Source of the DNA: Acidimicrobiia bacterium
Lineage (GTDB): Bacteria; Actinomycetota; Acidimicrobiia; Spongiisociales; ZC4RG35
Length of the DNA: 46,559 bases
Assembly: GCA_025928935.1 (NCBI GenBank)
Contig: JAICNB010000018.1
Coordinates: 1-46,559 of the forward strand
Direction: 5' to 3'
The position numbers and the translations under genes were made by a program. The notes beneath the pieces are model-generated. The model was not told the origin of the DNA. It did not search any database and worked only from the letters and a program-made list of their open reading frames with translations. Positions 5,829 to 24,619 of the stretch are shown here, one piece after another (position 1 is the stretch's first letter; every line of letters starts with the position of its first letter).

Positions 5829-6965
5829 GAGTGGCTGGTAGCTCGTTCCCGATCCCGTGTTCCAGACCACCACCTTCTCGCCGGGCTCGATCCACCCCGA
5901 GGCTGACAGCTCGCGGTAAGCCGCCCATGCCGCCCCGCCTTCGGGGCACATGTCGAGGCCCGTGGCGGCGGCCATCTCTTCCATCGTGTCGAGGATCACC
6001 GGGTCGGGCACCGACACGGCTGTTCCCTTGGTCTCGTCGATGGCGGTCAGGCAGAGAAACCCGCCGATCGGGGCCGGCACCCGCAGACCGTATGCCTTGG
6101 TCACCGGGTCGGGCCACGGTCGGGTCACTTTCGCCCCACGCCCGTGGGCCTCGACGATGGGGGCACATCCACTGGACTGGACGCAGACCAGACGAGGGCG
6201 TGCCCCTTCGATCCATCCCATCTGCTCCATCTCGTCCCAGGCCTTCCACATCCCGACCAGCCCAGTTCCACCACCCGTCGGATAGATGACCACGTCGGGC
6301 AAGGTGAATCCGAACTGCTCGAAGAGCTCATAGCCCATGGTCTTCTTGCCCTCGACGCGATAAGGCTCCTTCAGCGTCGAGACGTCGAACTCCCCATCCT
6401 CTCTGTTCTCGGCCAGCCAGCCGCCCGCGTCGGCGATGGTCCCGTCGACCAGGTGCACCTTGGCCCCGTTGGAGAGGCACTCGTCGATGATCGCGGAGGG
6501 GGTGTCACGTGGCATGGCGATGGTCACCGGGAGCCCGGCCTCGGCGCCGTAGGCCGAGAGGGCGGCCCCGGCGAAGCCGGCCGTCGGAACCACCAAGCGC
6601 TCGGCCCCGAGGAGCACGGCAGCGGAGACCGCCATGCTCATTCCCCGGGACTTGAAAGAGCCGCCAGGGTTGCCTGACTCGTCCTTGATCCAGACGTCCT
6701 CCTCGACCTCGATGATGGGTGTCCAGCCCTCGCCCAAGGAAACCGAGGAGCCGCGATCCACCGGCAGCACCGGCGAGTAACGCCACATCGAAGCGACGTC
6801 CTCGTCGATGGCCGACGGACCGGTGCCATCGGGGAGGATCACATCCACCCGCAACGGGAGGCCACAACGTTGGCATACGTTGTTGAGCTTGGTGGGATCG
6901 TGGCTCAGCCCACACGAGAAGCATGTGAGCGCAGCCACCCGCTCCTGGCCGGTCTGGGTGGGCAT
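5826..6965 (-). CDS. Threonine synthase-like PLP enzyme with N-terminal zinc ribbon
   Basis: A 379-residue fold-type II PLP enzyme. An N-terminal CxxC...CxxC (Cys15, 18, 31, 34) suggests a zinc ribbon, as in archaeal and actinobacterial threonine synthases. The PLP lysine is Lys105 in NPGGSFKSRG, and YPTGGGTG and NTGSG bind the phosphate. Threonine synthase converts O-phosphohomoserine to threonine; NPGGSFKSRG rather than the usual NPTGSFKDRG leaves room for another beta- or gamma-elimination reaction. Start ATG at 6965 has no Shine-Dalgarno; TATAGT lies 7 nt upstream (6973-6978), pointing to a leaderless mRNA. Confidence 0.85.
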   Translation of the reverse strand: MPTQTGQERVAALTCFSCGLSHDPTKLNNVCQRCGLPLRVDVILPDGTGPSAIDEDVASMWRYSPVLPVDRGSSVSLGEGWTPIIEVEEDVWIKDESGNPGGSFKSRGMSMAVSAAVLLGAERLVVPTAGFAGAALSAYGAEAGLPVTIAMPRDTPSAIIDECLSNGAKVHLVDGTIADAGGWLAENREDGEFDVSTLKEPYRVEGKKTMGYELFEQFGFTLPDVVIYPTGGGTGLVGMWKAWDEMEQMGWIEGARPRLVCVQSSGCAPIVEAHGRGAKVTRPWPDPVTKAYGLRVPAPIGGFLCLTAIDETKGTAVSVPDPVILDTMEEMAAATGLDMCPEGGAAWAAYRELSASGWIEPGEKVVVWNTGSGTSYQPL

Positions 6966-19033: not shown

Positions 19034-20125
19034 ATGAGGCGCTGTCTCACGGTGCTCACGGTGATGGCGGTCCTCGCCTGCAGCGGGACCTCGGCCAACA
19101 CTTCGACCACGGGGACACCGCCAACCACGGTGGCTGCCCCCACAACCACGATCGCCGGCACCACCACCCAGCCAATCCCGCCGACGTCCAACTCCACGGC
19201 AACCGTGCCGGCGACGATCGCCCCGGCCGATCTGACCCTCGAGTCGTTCCCCGTCCCTGACGGGTCGGGGCCGCACGACGTGGCCCCGGCCGCCGATGGA
19301 GGGGTCTGGTACACCGCACAGGCCACTGGTGAGTTGGGCTGGCTCGACCCCGAGACCGGCGAGACCAGACACACCGATCTCGGGCCCGGCTCGGCGCCCC
19401 ACGGGGTCATCGTCGACGACGCAGGGACGGCTTGGGTCACGGATAGCGGGCTCAATGCCATCCTCTCGGTCGACTCATCAGGTCAGGAAGTGACCATCTA
19501 CCCACTGCCCGAGGAGCGCCCCGATGCCAACTTGAACACGGCCACGTTCGATGGGGTCGGTGTCCTCTGGTTCACCGGGCAGAACGGGATCTACGGCAGT
19601 CTCGACCCGGGAAGCGGGGAGATCACAGTCAACGACGCACCAGAGGGTCGTGGGCCATACGGGGTGACCACCACACCCGAGGGAGTGGTCTACTACGCCT
19701 CGCTGGCGGGGTCGCACATCGCCCGCATCGAGCCCGACGGCAGTGCAACCGTCATCGAGCCGCCCACCCCGGACCAGGGCGCACGCCGGGTGTGGTCCGA
19801 TTCCGAGGGTCGGATCTGGGTGAGCGAGTGGAACACCGGGAACCTCAGCCGGTACACACCCGACATCGACGCTTGGGACACATGGCCGCTTCCAGGCGAG
19901 AACCCGGAGACGTACGCAGTCTTCGTTGACGAAACCGACATCGTGTGGGCCAGCGACTTCGGTTCGAACTCGATGGTCCGATTCGACTCGATCACCGAGC
20001 AGTTCGACACCTACGCCCTGCCCCACGACCCTGGCAACGTGCGTCAGATCCTCGGCCGGTCGGGGGAGGTGTGGTTCCCGGAATCAGCAGCCGACAACCT
20101 GATCGTGATCAGGACGGCCGCGTAG
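19034..20125 (+). CDS. Vgb-like beta-propeller lipoprotein
   Basis: A 363-residue lipoprotein (LTVMAVLAC, Cys16) with a long Thr/Pro linker (17-70) and a beta-propeller of the virginiamycin B lyase / SMP-30-like type. Repeated blades end in GGVWYTAQ, GTAWVTDS, GVLWFTG, GVVYYAS, GRIWVSE, DIVWASDF and GEVWFPES. True Vgb lyases open streptogramin lactones, but extracytoplasmic homologues of this kind mostly have unknown roles, and the key catalytic residues cannot be confirmed here. It is 10 bp after the MBL gene and likely co-transcribed. Confidence 0.85.
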   Translation: MRRCLTVLTVMAVLACSGTSANTSTTGTPPTTVAAPTTTIAGTTTQPIPPTSNSTATVPATIAPADLTLESFPVPDGSGPHDVAPAADGGVWYTAQATGELGWLDPETGETRHTDLGPGSAPHGVIVDDAGTAWVTDSGLNAILSVDSSGQEVTIYPLPEERPDANLNTATFDGVGVLWFTGQNGIYGSLDPGSGEITVNDAPEGRGPYGVTTTPEGVVYYASLAGSHIARIEPDGSATVIEPPTPDQGARRVWSDSEGRIWVSEWNTGNLSRYTPDIDAWDTWPLPGENPETYAVFVDETDIVWASDFGSNSMVRFDSITEQFDTYALPHDPGNVRQILGRSGEVWFPESAADNLIVIRTAA

Positions 20126-20135
20126 AGCCAGGCCG

Positions 20136-20164
20136 TTGCGCTGGGCCCTGTATCGGTCTATACT
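20136..20164 (+). promoter_or_regulatory. Sigma-70-type promoter of the CGNR gene
   Basis: TTGCGC (20136-20141), a 17-bp spacer, and TATACT (20159-20164) form a near-consensus housekeeping promoter 45 bp before ATG 20209. Confidence 0.6.
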
Positions 20165-20208
20165 GTGTTCGAACCTTACCGATCCGAAGACGAAACGTAG
20201 ACCATCAA

Positions 20209-20763
20209 ATGGATTTTTCGCATTACAGCGATGAACCGGTCCGGATGGCGGTCGACCTGGTCAACTCATTGGACGTCGTCAGTGGGCAGGAGACTCTCGA
20301 GGTCCCCGGGGACGTTGCTTCGTTCATCGAGGCCCACAACGGCGACTGGTGCCGACCTGGATGGCAGCCTGGAGAGAGGGACCTTCACGAGGTCCGCGCT
20401 CTCCGTTCCCGCCTCCGGCAGGTGTTCGAAGCTGCCACCGACGAGGAGGCGGCTGCTGTCCTGAACGATGTCCTCGCCGACATGGAGGCGGTCCCACGTG
20501 TGAGCGTTCACGGGACGGCGCCCCATCTCCATTTCGAATCGGAAGCCGGCAGCCCGGCCCGCTATCTCGGCGCCATCACCGCCATGGGATTGAGCGTCGC
20601 CCTCATCGAGGGTGGCTTCGACCGCTTCGGCATCTGCCATTCCTCCACGTGCGAGGACGTCTTCGTGGATGTGTCCCGCAATCATTCACGTCTGCATTGC
20701 TCGGACAGGTGCACGACCCGGGAGAACGTCGCAGCCCACCGGGCGCGCCGCCGCGCCGGCTGA
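20209..20763 (+). CDS. CGNR zinc-finger transcription factor-like protein
   Basis: A 184-residue protein with an ABATE-like N-terminal domain (LVNSLDVVSGQE at about 17, the usual LxNT/LVNS opening) and a C-terminal zinc finger. The finger reads FGICHSSTCEDVFVD...RLHCSDRCTTRENVAAHRARR, equivalent to the CGNR finger (C-x4-C ... C-x3-C), with CSDRC in place of the usual CGNRx. Proteins of this family are thought to be stress-related DNA-binding regulators. It has its own promoter and precedes the sigma-factor block. Confidence 0.85.
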   Translation: MDFSHYSDEPVRMAVDLVNSLDVVSGQETLEVPGDVASFIEAHNGDWCRPGWQPGERDLHEVRALRSRLRQVFEAATDEEAAAVLNDVLADMEAVPRVSVHGTAPHLHFESEAGSPARYLGAITAMGLSVALIEGGFDRFGICHSSTCEDVFVDVSRNHSRLHCSDRCTTRENVAAHRARRRAG

Positions 20764-20774
20764 CCCAACGGCCT

Positions 20775-20799
20775 GTATCAGCGTCGATTCGCCACGCTC
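20775..20799 (+). promoter_or_regulatory. Bipartite element, copy 1 (GTATCAG-N14-GCTC)
   Basis: GTATCAG (20775-20781), 14 nt, then GCTC (20796-20799), 43 nt before ATG 20843. It is the same layout as elements at 22501, 23584 and 23761 and is read as a candidate promoter for an alternative sigma factor. Confidence 0.5.
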
Positions 20800-20842
20800 T
20801 TCCCGGCACACGTAGGTCGTGATCACACGAAAGGGGAGGGAC

Positions 20843-21046
20843 ATGAGCAGCTATCTGACCGAGGCTCTGGTCTACGAGCGGATCAACCGCTATCAGAACG
20901 AGGCCGCCGCCCATCGTCGCAACAGAGCGGCCCGCCCGGAGGGCCCGAGTGCGTTCGATCGAGTCACCGAGGCATTGGGACGTGGCCTCGTCGCCATCGG
21001 CGAATCATTCAAAGTCGATCGTCGGCCGAGGATCCCCGCGATCTGA
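20843..21046 (+). CDS. Small protein of unknown function in the sigma-factor block
   Basis: A 67-residue soluble protein: acidic N-terminus SSYLTEALVYERINRYQNEAA, a basic centre (HRRNRAARPE) and an amphipathic helix (FDRVTEALGRGLVAIGESF). Not recognised. ATG 20843 follows AAGGGGAGGG, a very strong ribosome site, and the bipartite element lies 43 nt before it. Probably a member of the regulon of the neighbouring sigma factor. Confidence 0.6.
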   Translation: MSSYLTEALVYERINRYQNEAAAHRRNRAARPEGPSAFDRVTEALGRGLVAIGESFKVDRRPRIPAI

Positions 21047-21235
21047 CGCCCGGCCATGTCGTCGAACCTTCGAGGCTCGACGGTAGAGGCCGATCAGGAC
21101 CGACCCTCGGTTGCACCGGGGGTCGTTCCACGTGTTGGAGGAGTTTGGGACGCGTCCTCCCGACGAGGCGTGAGACTCCCGAAGATTCTCGTATTTGAGG
21201 GCCGGGCCCGACCCCCGGATCCGTACGATGAAGTC

Positions 21236-21832
21236 ATGGCGTCCTTGGCGCATGCCACCCACGGCGAGCTTCTGACACTGGCCAAATCCGGCGACAAGGC
21301 GGCCTGGGCACAACTGGTCGACCGGTTCAGCCAGATGGTTTGGTCGATCGCCCGCAGTTTCAGACTGGACGATGCCACCGCCAAGGACGTGAGCCAGACC
21401 GTCTGGCTGCGTCTGGTCGAGAACATCGACCGAATCGACGACCCGGAGCGGCTTCCTGGTTGGCTCGCCACCACCTGCCGTCGCGAGGCACTGCGGGTCC
21501 AGGGACTGCGAAACCGGGTGATCCCCACCGAGTTCGAGTACGACGTCCCCGATGATCGACCCTCATTGGAGACGATGCTGGTCGAGGACGAGGAAGCACG
21601 CGAGGTGGTCGCCGCTCTCGAGACGATCAGCGAGGACTGCCGGCAGCTGCTTCGCCTGCTCACCACCGAACCACCACTCAGCTACGAGGAGATCTCCGAC
21701 ATCGTCGGCCGCCCGATCGGAAGCCTGGGGCCCACTCGATCCAGGTGCATCGAGCGGCTCAAGGCCGCTATTTCAGCGCGTATCAATGGGGGCGGAAGAG
21801 GCTCTTCGGGGTCAGGAGATGATGCCAAGTGA
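21236..21832 (+). CDS. ECF-type RNA polymerase sigma factor
   Basis: A 198-residue sigma-70-family protein. Region 2 is LVDRFSQMVWSIARSFRLDDATAKDVSQTVWLRL (about 28-61, core and -10 binding); region 4 is LLTTEPPLSYEEISDIVGRPIGSLGPTRSRCIERLK (about 141-178, -35 recognition). The variable, acidic linker (DDRPSLETMLVEDEEA) is typical. ATG 21236 is chosen because TACGAT (21224-21229) sits 6 nt before it (leaderless); a longer frame to 21056 has poor coding character. A tiny frame starts at its stop with a GTGA overlap. No standard zinc anti-sigma follows. Confidence 0.92.
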   Translation: MASLAHATHGELLTLAKSGDKAAWAQLVDRFSQMVWSIARSFRLDDATAKDVSQTVWLRLVENIDRIDDPERLPGWLATTCRREALRVQGLRNRVIPTEFEYDVPDDRPSLETMLVEDEEAREVVAALETISEDCRQLLRLLTTEPPLSYEEISDIVGRPIGSLGPTRSRCIERLKAAISARINGGGRGSSGSGDDAK

Positions 21833-22011
21833 CGGAGTCGAGACCTCAGCCTGGTGAGGGGTCCGCAGCGGCGGTCTGCCGCGGACCGGGCGGATTGCCT
21901 CGCATCGCCAAAGAAAACCGCCACGAGCCGGCGGTCTCGAGGCGATCTGCGACGGCCAACGGCCCAGCTGTGTCTCCTACGTCCACCAACCGAGGAGCTG
22001 ATGTCCGATGA
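21829..22011 (+). CDS. Possible 60-residue coupled small protein
   Basis: An open frame that begins with GTG overlapping the sigma-factor stop (GTGA) and ends in TGA overlapping the next ATG (ATGA). The product is disordered, basic and rich in Pro, Arg, Ser and Ala, with one Cys. Exact four-base overlaps at both ends suggest translational coupling, but composition alone is close to random high-G+C sequence. It could be a co-regulator of the sigma factor or merely a frame that lets ribosomes pass. Confidence 0.35.
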   Translation: MTESRPQPGEGSAAAVCRGPGGLPRIAKENRHEPAVSRRSATANGPAVSPTSTNRGADVR

Positions 22012-22466
22012 CCAATCCGCCCGATCGAGAAGAAAAGAGAATCATGTCGCTTCTCCAGCGGGGGCTCGATCAATCGGACCCGGTTCCGCCCGATGTGACG
22101 GACTTTGCCAAGACGGCCCTCATTTGGCGGACCATCGACGCCGAGCTTGCGCTGTTGACCTACGACTCCACCGATGAGACGACGTCCATTTCGGTGAGAT
22201 CGACTGCTTCGGCGCGGATCGTTGGCTTCGAGGCCGGTGAATGGATGATCGATCTCGAGCACGACGCCTCGACCGGCGAGCTGCGGGGCCAGATCCAGCC
22301 TCCAGCTCGTCTCGATGTCGAGCTCCATGTCACCGGCGGCGTGCTCGCGACCGAGACGGACGAGCTGGGACGGTTTTCCTTCGACGGTGTCGAAGCGGGC
22401 CCGGTGGCCATCGTCATCCGAGCGGACGGTGGCGAGATGGTCAAGACGGAGTGGATCCTGCTCTGA
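22008..22466 (+). CDS. Sigma-linked protein with carboxypeptidase-regulatory-like beta domain
   Basis: A 152-residue protein. The N-terminal 45 residues are helical (DVTDFAKTALIWRTIDAELALL). The C-terminal 80 form a beta sandwich with TDELGRFSFDGVEAGPVAIVIRADG, the carboxypeptidase regulatory-like pattern. Such proteins often sit right after ECF sigma genes in actinobacteria, which suggests a sigma-regulating role, though no anti-sigma motif is visible. GAGGAG lies 10 nt before ATG 22008. Confidence 0.7.
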   Translation: MTNPPDREEKRIMSLLQRGLDQSDPVPPDVTDFAKTALIWRTIDAELALLTYDSTDETTSISVRSTASARIVGFEAGEWMIDLEHDASTGELRGQIQPPARLDVELHVTGGVLATETDELGRFSFDGVEAGPVAIVIRADGGEMVKTEWILL

Positions 22467-22500
22467 CCGGCTGACGAACCGGTCGATTCCTGGCCAGGCT

Positions 22501-22525
22501 GTATCAGGCGGCCATCGTGCCTCTC
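22501..22525 (+). promoter_or_regulatory. Bipartite element, copy 2 (GTATCAG-N14-TCTC)
   Basis: GTATCAG (22501-22507), 14 nt, TCTC (22522-22525), 55 nt before the small gene at 22581. Same layout as copy 1. Confidence 0.5.
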
Positions 22526-22580
22526 TCCAGATTTGAAACGTCGTCATCGGGCGACGTCCGTCAGCGAGGAAAGGCGCGAC

Positions 22581-22766
22581 ATGATGAACATGTCCGAAGC
22601 CCAGGAGCCGAGGGACACCCGGCGCTTTGTCTGGGCGGTTCGACCCTTCGAGATGCTCGAGAACCCCGTTCAGCGGTGGTTGGGCAATCGCATGAAAGAG
22701 AATCGCCTCCAGGTGAAGCACCGGCCCCAGGTCCTGCGACGCCTCATTGTTCGCCCCGCCATGTGA
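22581..22766 (+). CDS. Small basic protein of unknown function
   Basis: A 61-residue, Arg/Lys-rich soluble protein (RRFVWAVRPFEMLENPVQRWL, then MKENRLQVKHRPQVLRRLIVRPAM). No family is recognised. GAGGAAAGG precedes the ATG. A bipartite element lies upstream and a perfect hairpin downstream, so it is a complete single transcription unit, probably in the sigma regulon. Confidence 0.6.
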   Translation: MMNMSEAQEPRDTRRFVWAVRPFEMLENPVQRWLGNRMKENRLQVKHRPQVLRRLIVRPAM

Positions 22767-22801
22767 CGAGGCAGAGGCTCACACGCCTCGCTACGGAGTA
22801 G

Positions 22802-22829
22802 GAGAGCCCCCGCCACTGCGGGGGCTCTC
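22802..22829 (+). terminator. Perfect 12-bp hairpin terminator
   Basis: GAGAGCCCCCGC (22802-22813), loop CACT, GCGGGGGCTCTC (22818-22829), then TCATGG. No U-tract, but the stem is perfect and directly downstream of the small gene. Confidence 0.7.
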
Positions 22830-22856
22830 TCATGGTCGGTCGACCAGCACAACATG

Positions 22857-22886
22857 AAGAGGGACCGCCCGGAGGCGGCCCCTCTT
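22857..22886. terminator. Hairpin terminator for the minus-strand repeat protein
   Basis: AAGAGGG-a-CCGCC pairs with GGCGG-c-CCCTCTT, one internal mismatch, 20 bp beyond the stop of the minus-strand gene at 22907. It may also act on the plus strand (TTGGTTCTGT follows). Confidence 0.6.
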
Positions 22887-22906
22887 GGTTCTGTCTCGCG
22901 TCCCGT

Positions 22907-23509
22907 TCAGGGAATCCGGTTGTCCCACTCGGGCTGCACGAGCTCGGCCGGCTGCCGGCTAGCCGCCTGCGCCCGCACCATGTCGAGGTTGCCTTCGCTC
23001 GACGACCCGACCGCGGCGGGCCCGGGCACATAGATCACCTCACCGAGCTTCTCGGTCAGATACTCCAACCGGGTCTGCTCCGGGCTGATCCCGCGATGCT
23101 CTATCTGCTGGGCAGCCAGGTCCATCTTGGTCTTCTCCGGGCTGATCCCGGGGTGCTCGACGACCTGTCCAGCCAGGTCCATCTTGGTCTTCTCGATGTT
23201 GAAGCCAGGATGCTGGGCTCTGACCTGGAGCGCCAGGTCGTTCAGCCGCTCGAGCTCGGCGGCCGCGTTGGACCGCGTAGAGGCCTGGTAGGCCGCCTCG
23301 AGCTGCCGGACCATCTCGTCGTAACGATCGGAGGCGATCTCCGCTGCACGTGTCGAGGCGTTGGACACTGTGACCTCGTCGCCCTGATTGAAGGCAAACA
23401 CGAAGCCAACAGCGATCACGACGGCCAGAGCAGCAGCCGCGAAGCCGAGTCCCTTGCCGGATCGGCCGACGCCGGTTGTGGTACCCGACTGGGTAGCACT
23501 AGTAGACAT
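22907..23509 (-). CDS. Membrane-anchored protein with three 19-residue repeats
   Basis: A 200-residue protein of unknown family. A flexible N-terminus (1-20), one membrane helix (about 21-40), an extracytoplasmic helical region (45-98), then three tandem 19-residue repeats at 100-118, 119-137 and 138-156 with the pattern H-[PR]-G-x3-E-x-T-[KR]-[ML]-[DE], then a disordered tail. The first two repeats are almost identical, also at DNA level. GGGAGAG precedes the ATG. Bipartite element copy 3 lies upstream, which places it in the putative sigma regulon. It could be a cell-surface stress protein. Confidence 0.75.
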   Translation of the reverse strand: MSTSATQSGTTTGVGRSGKGLGFAAAALAVVIAVGFVFAFNQGDEVTVSNASTRAAEIASDRYDEMVRQLEAAYQASTRSNAAAELERLNDLALQVRAQHPGFNIEKTKMDLAGQVVEHPGISPEKTKMDLAAQQIEHRGISPEQTRLEYLTEKLGEVIYVPGPAAVGSSSEGNLDMVRAQAASRQPAELVQPEWDNRIP

Positions 23510-23559
23510 GTCTCTCCCTTTCTGTGGTCAGGGACCCTTTGTCCCCCACTGGCGGAAAG

Positions 23560-23584
23560 GAGCAGCGGTCGGGGGGCCTGATAC
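23560..23584 (-). promoter_or_regulatory. Bipartite element, copy 3 (GTATCAG-N14-GCTC)
   Basis: On the minus strand: GTATCAG (23584-23578), 14 nt, GCTC (23563-23560), 50 nt before the ATG at 23509. Confidence 0.5.
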
Positions 23585-23624
23585 ATCTCATTCGGCGATT
23601 GGCTACATGTGGGTTGCTCCATGA

Positions 23625-23654
23625 GAGAAGGGCCGTCTGACGACGGCCCTTCTC
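23625..23654 (-). terminator. Perfect 13-bp hairpin ending a short minus-strand transcript
   Basis: GAGAAGGGCCGTC (23625-23637) and GACGGCCCTTCTC (23642-23654) pair perfectly around 4 nt. On the minus strand it is followed by TCATGG, as is the plus-strand hairpin at 22802-22829. No gene abuts it, so it probably ends a short RNA driven by bipartite element copy 4. Confidence 0.6.
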
Positions 23655-23736
23655 CTCTCTCCCTCGGTCGTGAGCTTCTCGCCCGCAACCTCCCCGCCGG
23701 TCTTCTTCGCATGAACGGGTTGTTCCCGTCAGCTAG

Positions 23737-23761
23737 GAGAATGTTCGAGGTCTCCTGATAC
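23737..23761 (-). promoter_or_regulatory. Bipartite element, copy 4 (GTATCAG-N14-TCTC)
   Basis: On the minus strand: GTATCAG (23761-23755), 14 nt, TCTC (23740-23737). About 80-110 nt downstream is the perfect hairpin at 23654-23625. Confidence 0.4.
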
Positions 23762-23833
23762 GCATGACCACAAATCCAGCCGTGGTCCGAGCGATCACGC
23801 AAGCGAGGGGGCCGGCGGGATAGCCTGAAGTGC

Positions 23834-24196
23834 ATGAGATTCCTGATCAAGCTGGCCGTAACCGCCCTGGCAGTTTGGATCGCCTTCACCTACGTCCCCG
23901 GCCTCGACTTCACCGGTTCGTTCTGGAACCTCGTGGTCGTTGCGATCCTGGTGGCGCTGGTCAACGCCATCGTCAAGCCGCTGATGAACTTGTTCAGCCT
24001 GCCGATCGTGATCCTGACCCTCGGCCTCTTTCTCTTGATCACCAACGCTCTGGCCCTGCAGCTCGTGATCTGGCTGTCGGGTCTGATGGACCTGGGGCTG
24101 AGCTCGACCGGCTTCTTCTGGGCCACTTTCTGGGGAGCTGTCGTGATCTCCGTCGTCCGCTGGGCGGCGGACTGGTTCATCCCCGACGAACGGTGA
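23834..24196 (+). CDS. Phage holin family / YvlD-like 4-TM membrane protein
   Basis: A 120-residue integral membrane protein with four hydrophobic segments (about 3-22, 30-50, 55-80, 93-113). The pattern FxGSFWNLVVVAILVALVNAIVKPLMNLFSLPIVILTLGLF is that of the mycobacterial-type 4-TM 'phage holin' family, which is chromosomal, not phage-borne, and of unknown function. TAGCCT (23821-23826) ends 7 nt before ATG, so the mRNA is probably leaderless. Confidence 0.88.
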   Translation: MRFLIKLAVTALAVWIAFTYVPGLDFTGSFWNLVVVAILVALVNAIVKPLMNLFSLPIVILTLGLFLLITNALALQLVIWLSGLMDLGLSSTGFFWATFWGAVVISVVRWAADWFIPDER

Positions 24197-24214
24197 TCCG
24201 CCTGAAGAATGCGT

Positions 24215-24619
24215 CTACCAGGCCCGGATGCGATCGAGCCTGAGACGTATCAACGTCGAATAGTCGGCGGCAAACTCTTCAGGGGTCCAGCCCAGGCGCT
24301 CGATTTGAGAGCGGTACTTGGCCAGGTAGGCCGCATCTTCGTGGGCGGGGGTCGGCTGATCGAGGATGGTCGCAGTGGCCTCGAATGTCGCCACCATGTC
24401 TGCCTCGAGGTCGCCACGTAGGTTGAAGGCGACCTTTGGGTTCGAGGCGATGTTCTCCAATTTGGTCGTTCCTGGCTTGCTGTAGACGAGCAGATCGTCG
24501 CCATCCCGCAGAAACCAGACAACGGAGCTCTGCGGTTGGCCCGAGGGAGCGACGGTGGTGAGCCATCCGACCAGGTCCTCGTCGAGACGGCCGGCCAGCT
24601 CGGGGCGGTTCTCCAACAT
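24215..24619 (-). CDS. PPOX-class F420-dependent oxidoreductase (TIGR03667-like)
   Basis: A 134-residue split-barrel protein. GWLTTVAPSGQPQSSVVWFLRDGDDLLVYSKPGTTKLENI and NPKVAFNLRGD fit the F420-binding PPOX subgroup; the C-terminal WTPEEFAADYSTLIRLRLDRIRAW is typical. F420 use is inferred from the subfamily and marks an actinobacterial host. ATG 24619 is chosen; TTG 24628 is possible. It follows the lipoprotein gene by 10 bp on the same strand and is likely co-transcribed. Confidence 0.88.
   Translation of the reverse strand: MLENRPELAGRLDEDLVGWLTTVAPSGQPQSSVVWFLRDGDDLLVYSKPGTTKLENIASNPKVAFNLRGDLEADMVATFEATATILDQPTPAHEDAAYLAKYRSQIERLGWTPEEFAADYSTLIRLRLDRIRAW

Follow-up and report, generated by a model that had tools for sequence, protein, structure and literature searches.

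Group ECF54 of the extracytoplasmic function (ECF) sigma factors (Casas-Pastor et al. 2021) is described in section 3.3 of PMC8999054 as having gene neighbors with carboxypeptidase, subtilase, and CHAT domains, and proteolytic control without an anti-sigma factor is proposed there from gene context; the passage on this group gives no promoter motif for it. In type III-E CRISPR systems, the TPR-CHAT protease Csx29 cleaves Csx30, an inhibitor of an ECF sigma factor whose motifs cluster in its own locus (CASP-sigma; PMC10028731). Here we analyze a 46,559-nucleotide (nt) stretch of DNA from an Acidimicrobiia bacterium (GenBank assembly GCA_025928935.1, contig JAICNB010000018.1, positions 1 to 46,559 of the forward strand; hereafter the window), in which a bipartite element, GTATCAG-N14-KCTC, recurs around an ECF sigma gene at 21236-21832 (+). 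Sequence comparison across genomes indicates that the elements are very probably promoters of this sigma factor, each driving the gene just downstream.

By gene neighborhood (CarboxypepD_reg, subtilase, and TPR-CHAT), the sigma factor resembles group ECF54. As in that group, insofar as the cited section describes it, no classical membrane anti-sigma gene adjoins the sigma gene, and carboxypeptidase(-regulatory), subtilase, and CHAT genes are its neighbors, a likeness of neighborhood. These neighbors appear in relatives as PF13620-like, PF00082, and PF12770 genes. Unlike ECF54 as described there, the window's own locus is without subtilase and CHAT genes and keeps only a CarboxypepD_reg-like (CpD-like) gene. 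With CASP-sigma (PMC10028731), loci of this sigma factor share an ECF sigma gene, a TPR-CHAT protease, a small partner, and motifs clustered before several genes of unknown function, with the TPR-CHAT gene absent from the window's locus and present in that of congener G001. In contrast to CASP-sigma, the genes identified around these sigma factors include a subtilase but no CRISPR effector. The CpD-like partner, which is not known to inhibit its sigma factor, is likened to Csx30 by gene association. The kind of thing described here, an ECF sigma factor with its promoters, is already known, and we make no claim to a first description of the motif; our literature search, which did not extend to the ECF classification and actinobacterial survey papers, found no GTATC motif given for any ECF group.

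Elements and sigma factor in the window

GTATCAG-N14-KCTC has exactly four matches in the window, where 0.02 are expected, and no shuffled sequence attained four. All four have exact spacing and lie between plausible genes, as an earlier note on this DNA, made from its letters alone, had claimed. Element 1 (20775-20799, +; GTATCAG-N14-GCTC) follows an ABATE/CGNR gene (20209-20763) and ends 43 nt before the start (20843) of an open reading frame (ORF) of 67 amino acids (aa). Element 2 (22501-22525, +; GTATCAG-N14-TCTC) lies between 22466 and 22581, 55 nt from the start of a 61-aa ORF (22581), and element 3 (23560-23584, -; GTATCAG-N14-GCTC) is upstream of a 200-aa ORF starting at 23509 (-), at a distance of 50 nt; these measured distances agree with the 43 to 55 nt given earlier for three copies, and each of the three start codons is preceded by a ribosome-binding-like sequence. 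Element 4 (23737-23761, -; GTATCAG-N14-TCTC), between 23509 and 23834, is 177 nt upstream of element 3 and points in the same direction. A fifth element (21780-21805, +; GTATCA-N15-GCTCT) was absent from the earlier list because its seventh letter is A. It lies upstream of the CpD-like gene, within the 3' end of the sigma coding sequence.

Close homologs of the sigma factor occur in two same-genus genomes (85% and 81% identity) and in a scatter of genera within the family and order. In the congeners, the same elements precede the same genes; both boxes and their spacing are kept, and the spacer has diverged. Element 1 is kept in G001 (locus L100, oriented position 5970), element 2 in G001, G002, and G018, and element 3 in G002, and element 5 recurs in G001 and G002 at +544, counted from the sigma start, and in many further genera at +520 to +545. 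That all four copies lie within 3 kb might be put down to chance similarity or to the spread of one repeat within the locus. We give this explanation practically no credence: the spacers of the four copies have no similarity to one another, each copy is separately conserved in relatives, and only 0.02 matches would be expected. Together with the held-out enrichment and the paralog comparison given below, the per-copy conservation and spacer dissimilarity refute it.

The claim that an ECF sigma factor is encoded between the copies is borne out by domain, profile, and fold matches. The protein of about 200 aa has sigma2 and sigma4 domains only, matches Sigma70_r2 and, over residues 23-178, the ECF superfamily model TIGR02937, and in a PDB profile search matches structures of sigma-E, AlgU, and SigW. 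Its predicted structure has the ECF fold and matches ECF sigma factors, with the sigma4 helix-turn-helix, the mutual placing of the two domains being uncertain (pTM 0.46). The recognition helix carries a family signature, GSxGPTRxRC, that is nearly invariant in the family, as is the -35 box; in the alignment, E. coli sigma-E has GTVRSRIF at this place. A search for sigma4 residues tied to the A-type versus T-type -35 box, a weak comparison with a few misaligned rows, found none that followed the change, and this idea was rejected. PADLOC gave no match for the sigma, CpD-like, CHAT, or 200-aa protein.

A conserved probable promoter code

Around the sigma homologs, GTATC-Nk-CTC has a sharp peak at k = 17, with 40 counts (in a pool that a few loci entered twice) versus about 3 to 12 at other k. 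When the class was searched with the sigma alignment, 33 of 296 genomes matched. Thirty loci were examined; GTATC[AT]-Nk-CTC occurs in them 33 times at k = 17 versus 0 to 8 times at other k, and 25 of the 30 have the element. Twenty of the class-wide loci, from genomes unused in defining the motif, served as a held-out set and contain 22 such matches at k = 17. Here GTATC ranks first in enrichment among 5-mers 22 nt before CTC (23 versus 1.4, p 1e-20), and CTC, at exactly the same offset, ranks first among 3-mers after GTATC (p 1e-21). The peak extends to other classes of the phylum, where it falls at k = 17 and 18 (10 + 6 = 16 of 28 matches over k = 8-30). A weight matrix reads GTATC(A/T), a spacer without information, and then CTC(T), of which the final T was not imposed.

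The two boxes stand at a fixed spacing, face the downstream start, and are associated with the sigma gene, and their spacing fits ECF promoters. On this evidence, it is almost certain that GTATC(A/T)-N16-CTC(T) serves this ECF subfamily as its -35/-10 promoter. It is like classical ECF promoters (GGAAC -35, sigma-E/SigR type) in its two short boxes, fixed ECF-length spacer, and autoregulation in several genera, and unlike them in its -35 GTATC(A/T), which is without the AAC of the GGAAC type, its -10 CTC(T), and the helix GSxGPTRxRC in place of GTVRSRIF. A nearly invariant helix of non-GGAAC type would fit an invariant -35 of non-GGAAC type. The earlier suggestion of a new promoter class finds a partial answer: the -35 is clearly not GGAAC; on the other side, the gene context would place the sigma factor in or near the known ECF54, as that group is characterized in PMC8999054.

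Besides this one, the window's genome has genes for at least six ECF-like sigma factors, any of which, like the housekeeping sigma factor, might in principle read these elements. We consider promoters for another sigma factor of the cell highly improbable. GTATCA-N15-DCTCT exceeds its reversed control only in genomes that have this sigma factor (36 versus 14, compared with 22 versus 32 in genomes without it), and 35 loci of a different ECF paralog, the nearest one, mostly from the same class, contain no GTATC[AT]-CTC at k = 17. The boxes are also unlike TTGACA/TATAAT or GGAAC.

Position of the element across genera

The sites face the starts of sigma, CpD, subtilase, and small-protein genes 23 to 60 nt downstream (for the sigma gene, about 60 to 330 nt). 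The element precedes the sigma gene in G017, G020, G041, G225, G286, G149, G188, and others; it lies at the sigma 3' end before the CpD-like gene in G001, G002, G018, G008, G022, G171, G244, G243, G153, and others; and it stands before a subtilase gene in G010, G020, G022, and Amycolatopsis (locus L050), while three further Amycolatopsis loci keep GTATCA before the subtilase with the -10 changed. Tiny basic proteins are encoded behind it in G018, G046, G039, and G044.

These positions also bear on whether the elements are operators of a separate DNA-binding regulator, such as the ABATE/CGNR protein, in place of promoters. A site whose two boxes are about two helical turns apart could suit a dimer, and a transcription factor gene does adjoin element 1. 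Against this, GTATCA and CTCT are neither inverted nor direct repeats, the sites share one orientation relative to the downstream start, the elements accompany the sigma gene across many genomes and stand directly before it in several genera, and the neighborhood comparison matched the ABATE gene nowhere but in the window, G001, and two Allokutzneria loci. We thus regard operators as very unlikely. Elements read as -35 and -10 boxes by the local sigma factor, as the earlier note had proposed, are supported instead by conserved boxes with a free spacer, by orientation to the start codon, by co-occurrence with the sigma factor across many genera, by the element before the sigma gene elsewhere, by enrichment in held-out genomes, and by absence from the loci of the different ECF paralog. 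We infer that the sigma factor binds them.

Two further groups of genes follow the element. An arginine-rich family of 51 to 54 aa, starting M(N/T/Y)..(R)(P/A)QDL, lies behind it in G039 (L067), G046 (L097), and G044 (L041); G039 has no close sigma homolog at the cut-off used. In other families, the element precedes ORFs that by sequence judgement are exopolysaccharide-like, namely, Wzz-like in G085 (L118) and UDP-glucose-dehydrogenase-like in G150 (L126), and because of such genes the code may have been recruited for other outputs in some genera.

Counterevidence and genome-wide distribution

Several observations weigh against promoters that each drive the next gene for the local sigma factor. 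Five of the 30 class-wide loci have no element within 1.5 kb, although two of these genomes, G010 and G034, have one further out. Element 4 has no obvious gene of its own, and a counterpart with its spacing was sought in G002 and not found. Element 5 is 203 nt from the CpD-like start in the window versus 24 to 28 nt in G002, G018, G008, and G022. No element precedes the sigma gene in the window, autoregulation being seen only in other genera. Finally, across the whole 3.08-Mb genome, the strict pattern is not above background (8 matches versus 7 for the reversed control), so that the genome search proposed earlier recovers the local cluster of four and no genome-wide excess.

The looser GTATCW-N16-CTCY behaves likewise (16 versus 21 for the reversed control), and its 11 matches outside the locus are all within long ORFs. 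A genome-wide regulon in the window's genome was dropped on these grounds. As the genome-wide counts are at background, the signal is the local cluster and not a genome-wide number, and the regulon in this genome looks purely local.

Predicted targets and neighboring genes

The predicted targets in the window are small or lack recognizable domains. The 67-aa small basic protein (MSSYLTEALVYERINRYQ...; 20843-21046, +) has no Pfam match, and its G001 ortholog stands behind the same promoter. The 61-aa small basic protein (..RRFVWAVRPFEM..NPVQRWLGNR..LIVRPAM; 22581-22766, +), likewise without a Pfam match, has homologs behind the same promoter in G001, G002, and G018. GC hairpins at 21097-21130 (+; -25 kcal/mol, with a similar hairpin after the G001 ortholog) and 22801-22830 (+; -28.9 kcal/mol) are their probable terminators, and because a strong GC hairpin directly follows each gene, both look like single-gene transcription units.

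The third predicted target, the 200-aa protein (GISPEKTKMDLA; 22907-23509, -), has one N-terminal hydrophobic stretch, repeats, and no Pfam match; its G002 ortholog is behind the same promoter. The repeats are degenerate copies of (P)GI/N(S/N)(P/I)EKTKMDLA. The protein contains no known domain, and no relatives of it were found in the plasmid records searched. Between elements 4 and 3 lies a perfect 13-bp hairpin (23625-23654, -; z -4.0), probably a terminator or attenuator of the element-4 transcript. With the hairpin within about 110 nt of element 4 and no clear gene behind that element, the segment 23625-23761 (-) may be a small RNA or, ahead of element 3, an attenuated leader; an Rfam scan of 20000-24600 gave no family.

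The CpD-like protein (152 aa; 22008-22466, +) has a weak CarboxypepD_reg match, with conserved N-terminal helices (DPVPxxV...WRTIDAELAxLxxDS) and a C-terminal beta-sandwich. Its gene adjoins the sigma gene in most relatives, and the protein is a candidate regulator of the sigma factor. Because only the beta-sandwich is confident in the model, the N-terminal helical region being of low confidence, and no fold match was informative, its identity as an anti-sigma factor stays conjectural. A 60-codon ORF (21829-22011, +) bridges the two genes and overlaps both the stop codon of the sigma gene and the start of the CpD-like gene (ATGA). It has the same length in G001 with a poorly conserved sequence, while G002 and G018 instead have the CpD start directly behind the promoter.

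Probable loss of protease genes and a possible mechanism

In relatives, the genes around the sigma factor include a TPR-CHAT protease (PF12770, E 1e-31), present in congener G001, and a subtilase (PF00082). Both were sought at the window's locus and are absent, the CpD-like gene being the only one of these neighbors left. The G001 segment that holds them, between the 67-aa gene and the sigma gene, is missing at window positions 21047-21235; because both flanks align, a natural deletion that spared the sigma gene, the CpD-like gene, and the promoters looks likely. At the edge of another contig of the same genome (G000:C4:311-4022, L096), a distant TPR-CHAT paralog (30% identity) and a subtilase-like ORF form a second pair of this kind, with no GTATCA element in the 14 kb read.

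From ECF biology, sigma region 4 would read the -35 box GTATC(A/T), region 2 would read the -10 box CTC(T), which begins 17 nt past the end of GTATC, and transcription would start a few nucleotides downstream of the -10. Targets in the window would be the CpD-like gene, with its promoter in the end of the sigma gene, the two tiny basic proteins, and the 200-aa membrane-type protein. The code would also drive, in related genera, the sigma gene, as autoregulation, and the partner subtilase. By analogy, the CpD-like protein might conceivably hold the sigma factor and the proteases release it, although we lean against this. In the window's genome, which has no local proteases, either the distant CHAT/subtilase pair would serve or the control would have changed. 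A broader and more speculative scheme, which we consider rather unlikely, is that GTATC(A/T)-N16-CTC(T) would be an undescribed promoter class defining the genes under a widespread protease relay independent of CRISPR, in which TPR-CHAT and/or subtilase would remove the CpD-like inhibitor and the freed sigma factor would activate itself, the proteases, and the tiny basic effectors, perhaps as a conflict or stress response; the window's lineage would have lost the proteases, with sigma factor and promoters rewired.

Implications

ECF54-like sigma factors, as the cited section describes their group, adjoin caspase-like (CHAT) and subtilisin-like proteases, and a promoter code with named targets makes the proteolytic control proposed for them testable in the laboratory, as reporters can be built directly. 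The pairing of a sigma4 helix with a -35 box outside the GGAAC type (GSxGPTRxRC with GTATC) would help to decode ECF specificity and could serve for orthogonal promoters. The predicted targets, tiny basic proteins and small membrane proteins, point to the output of the system. For a stress-response family that is linked to proteases and poorly understood, the code would reveal the recognition sequence and the tiny proteins that are its targets.

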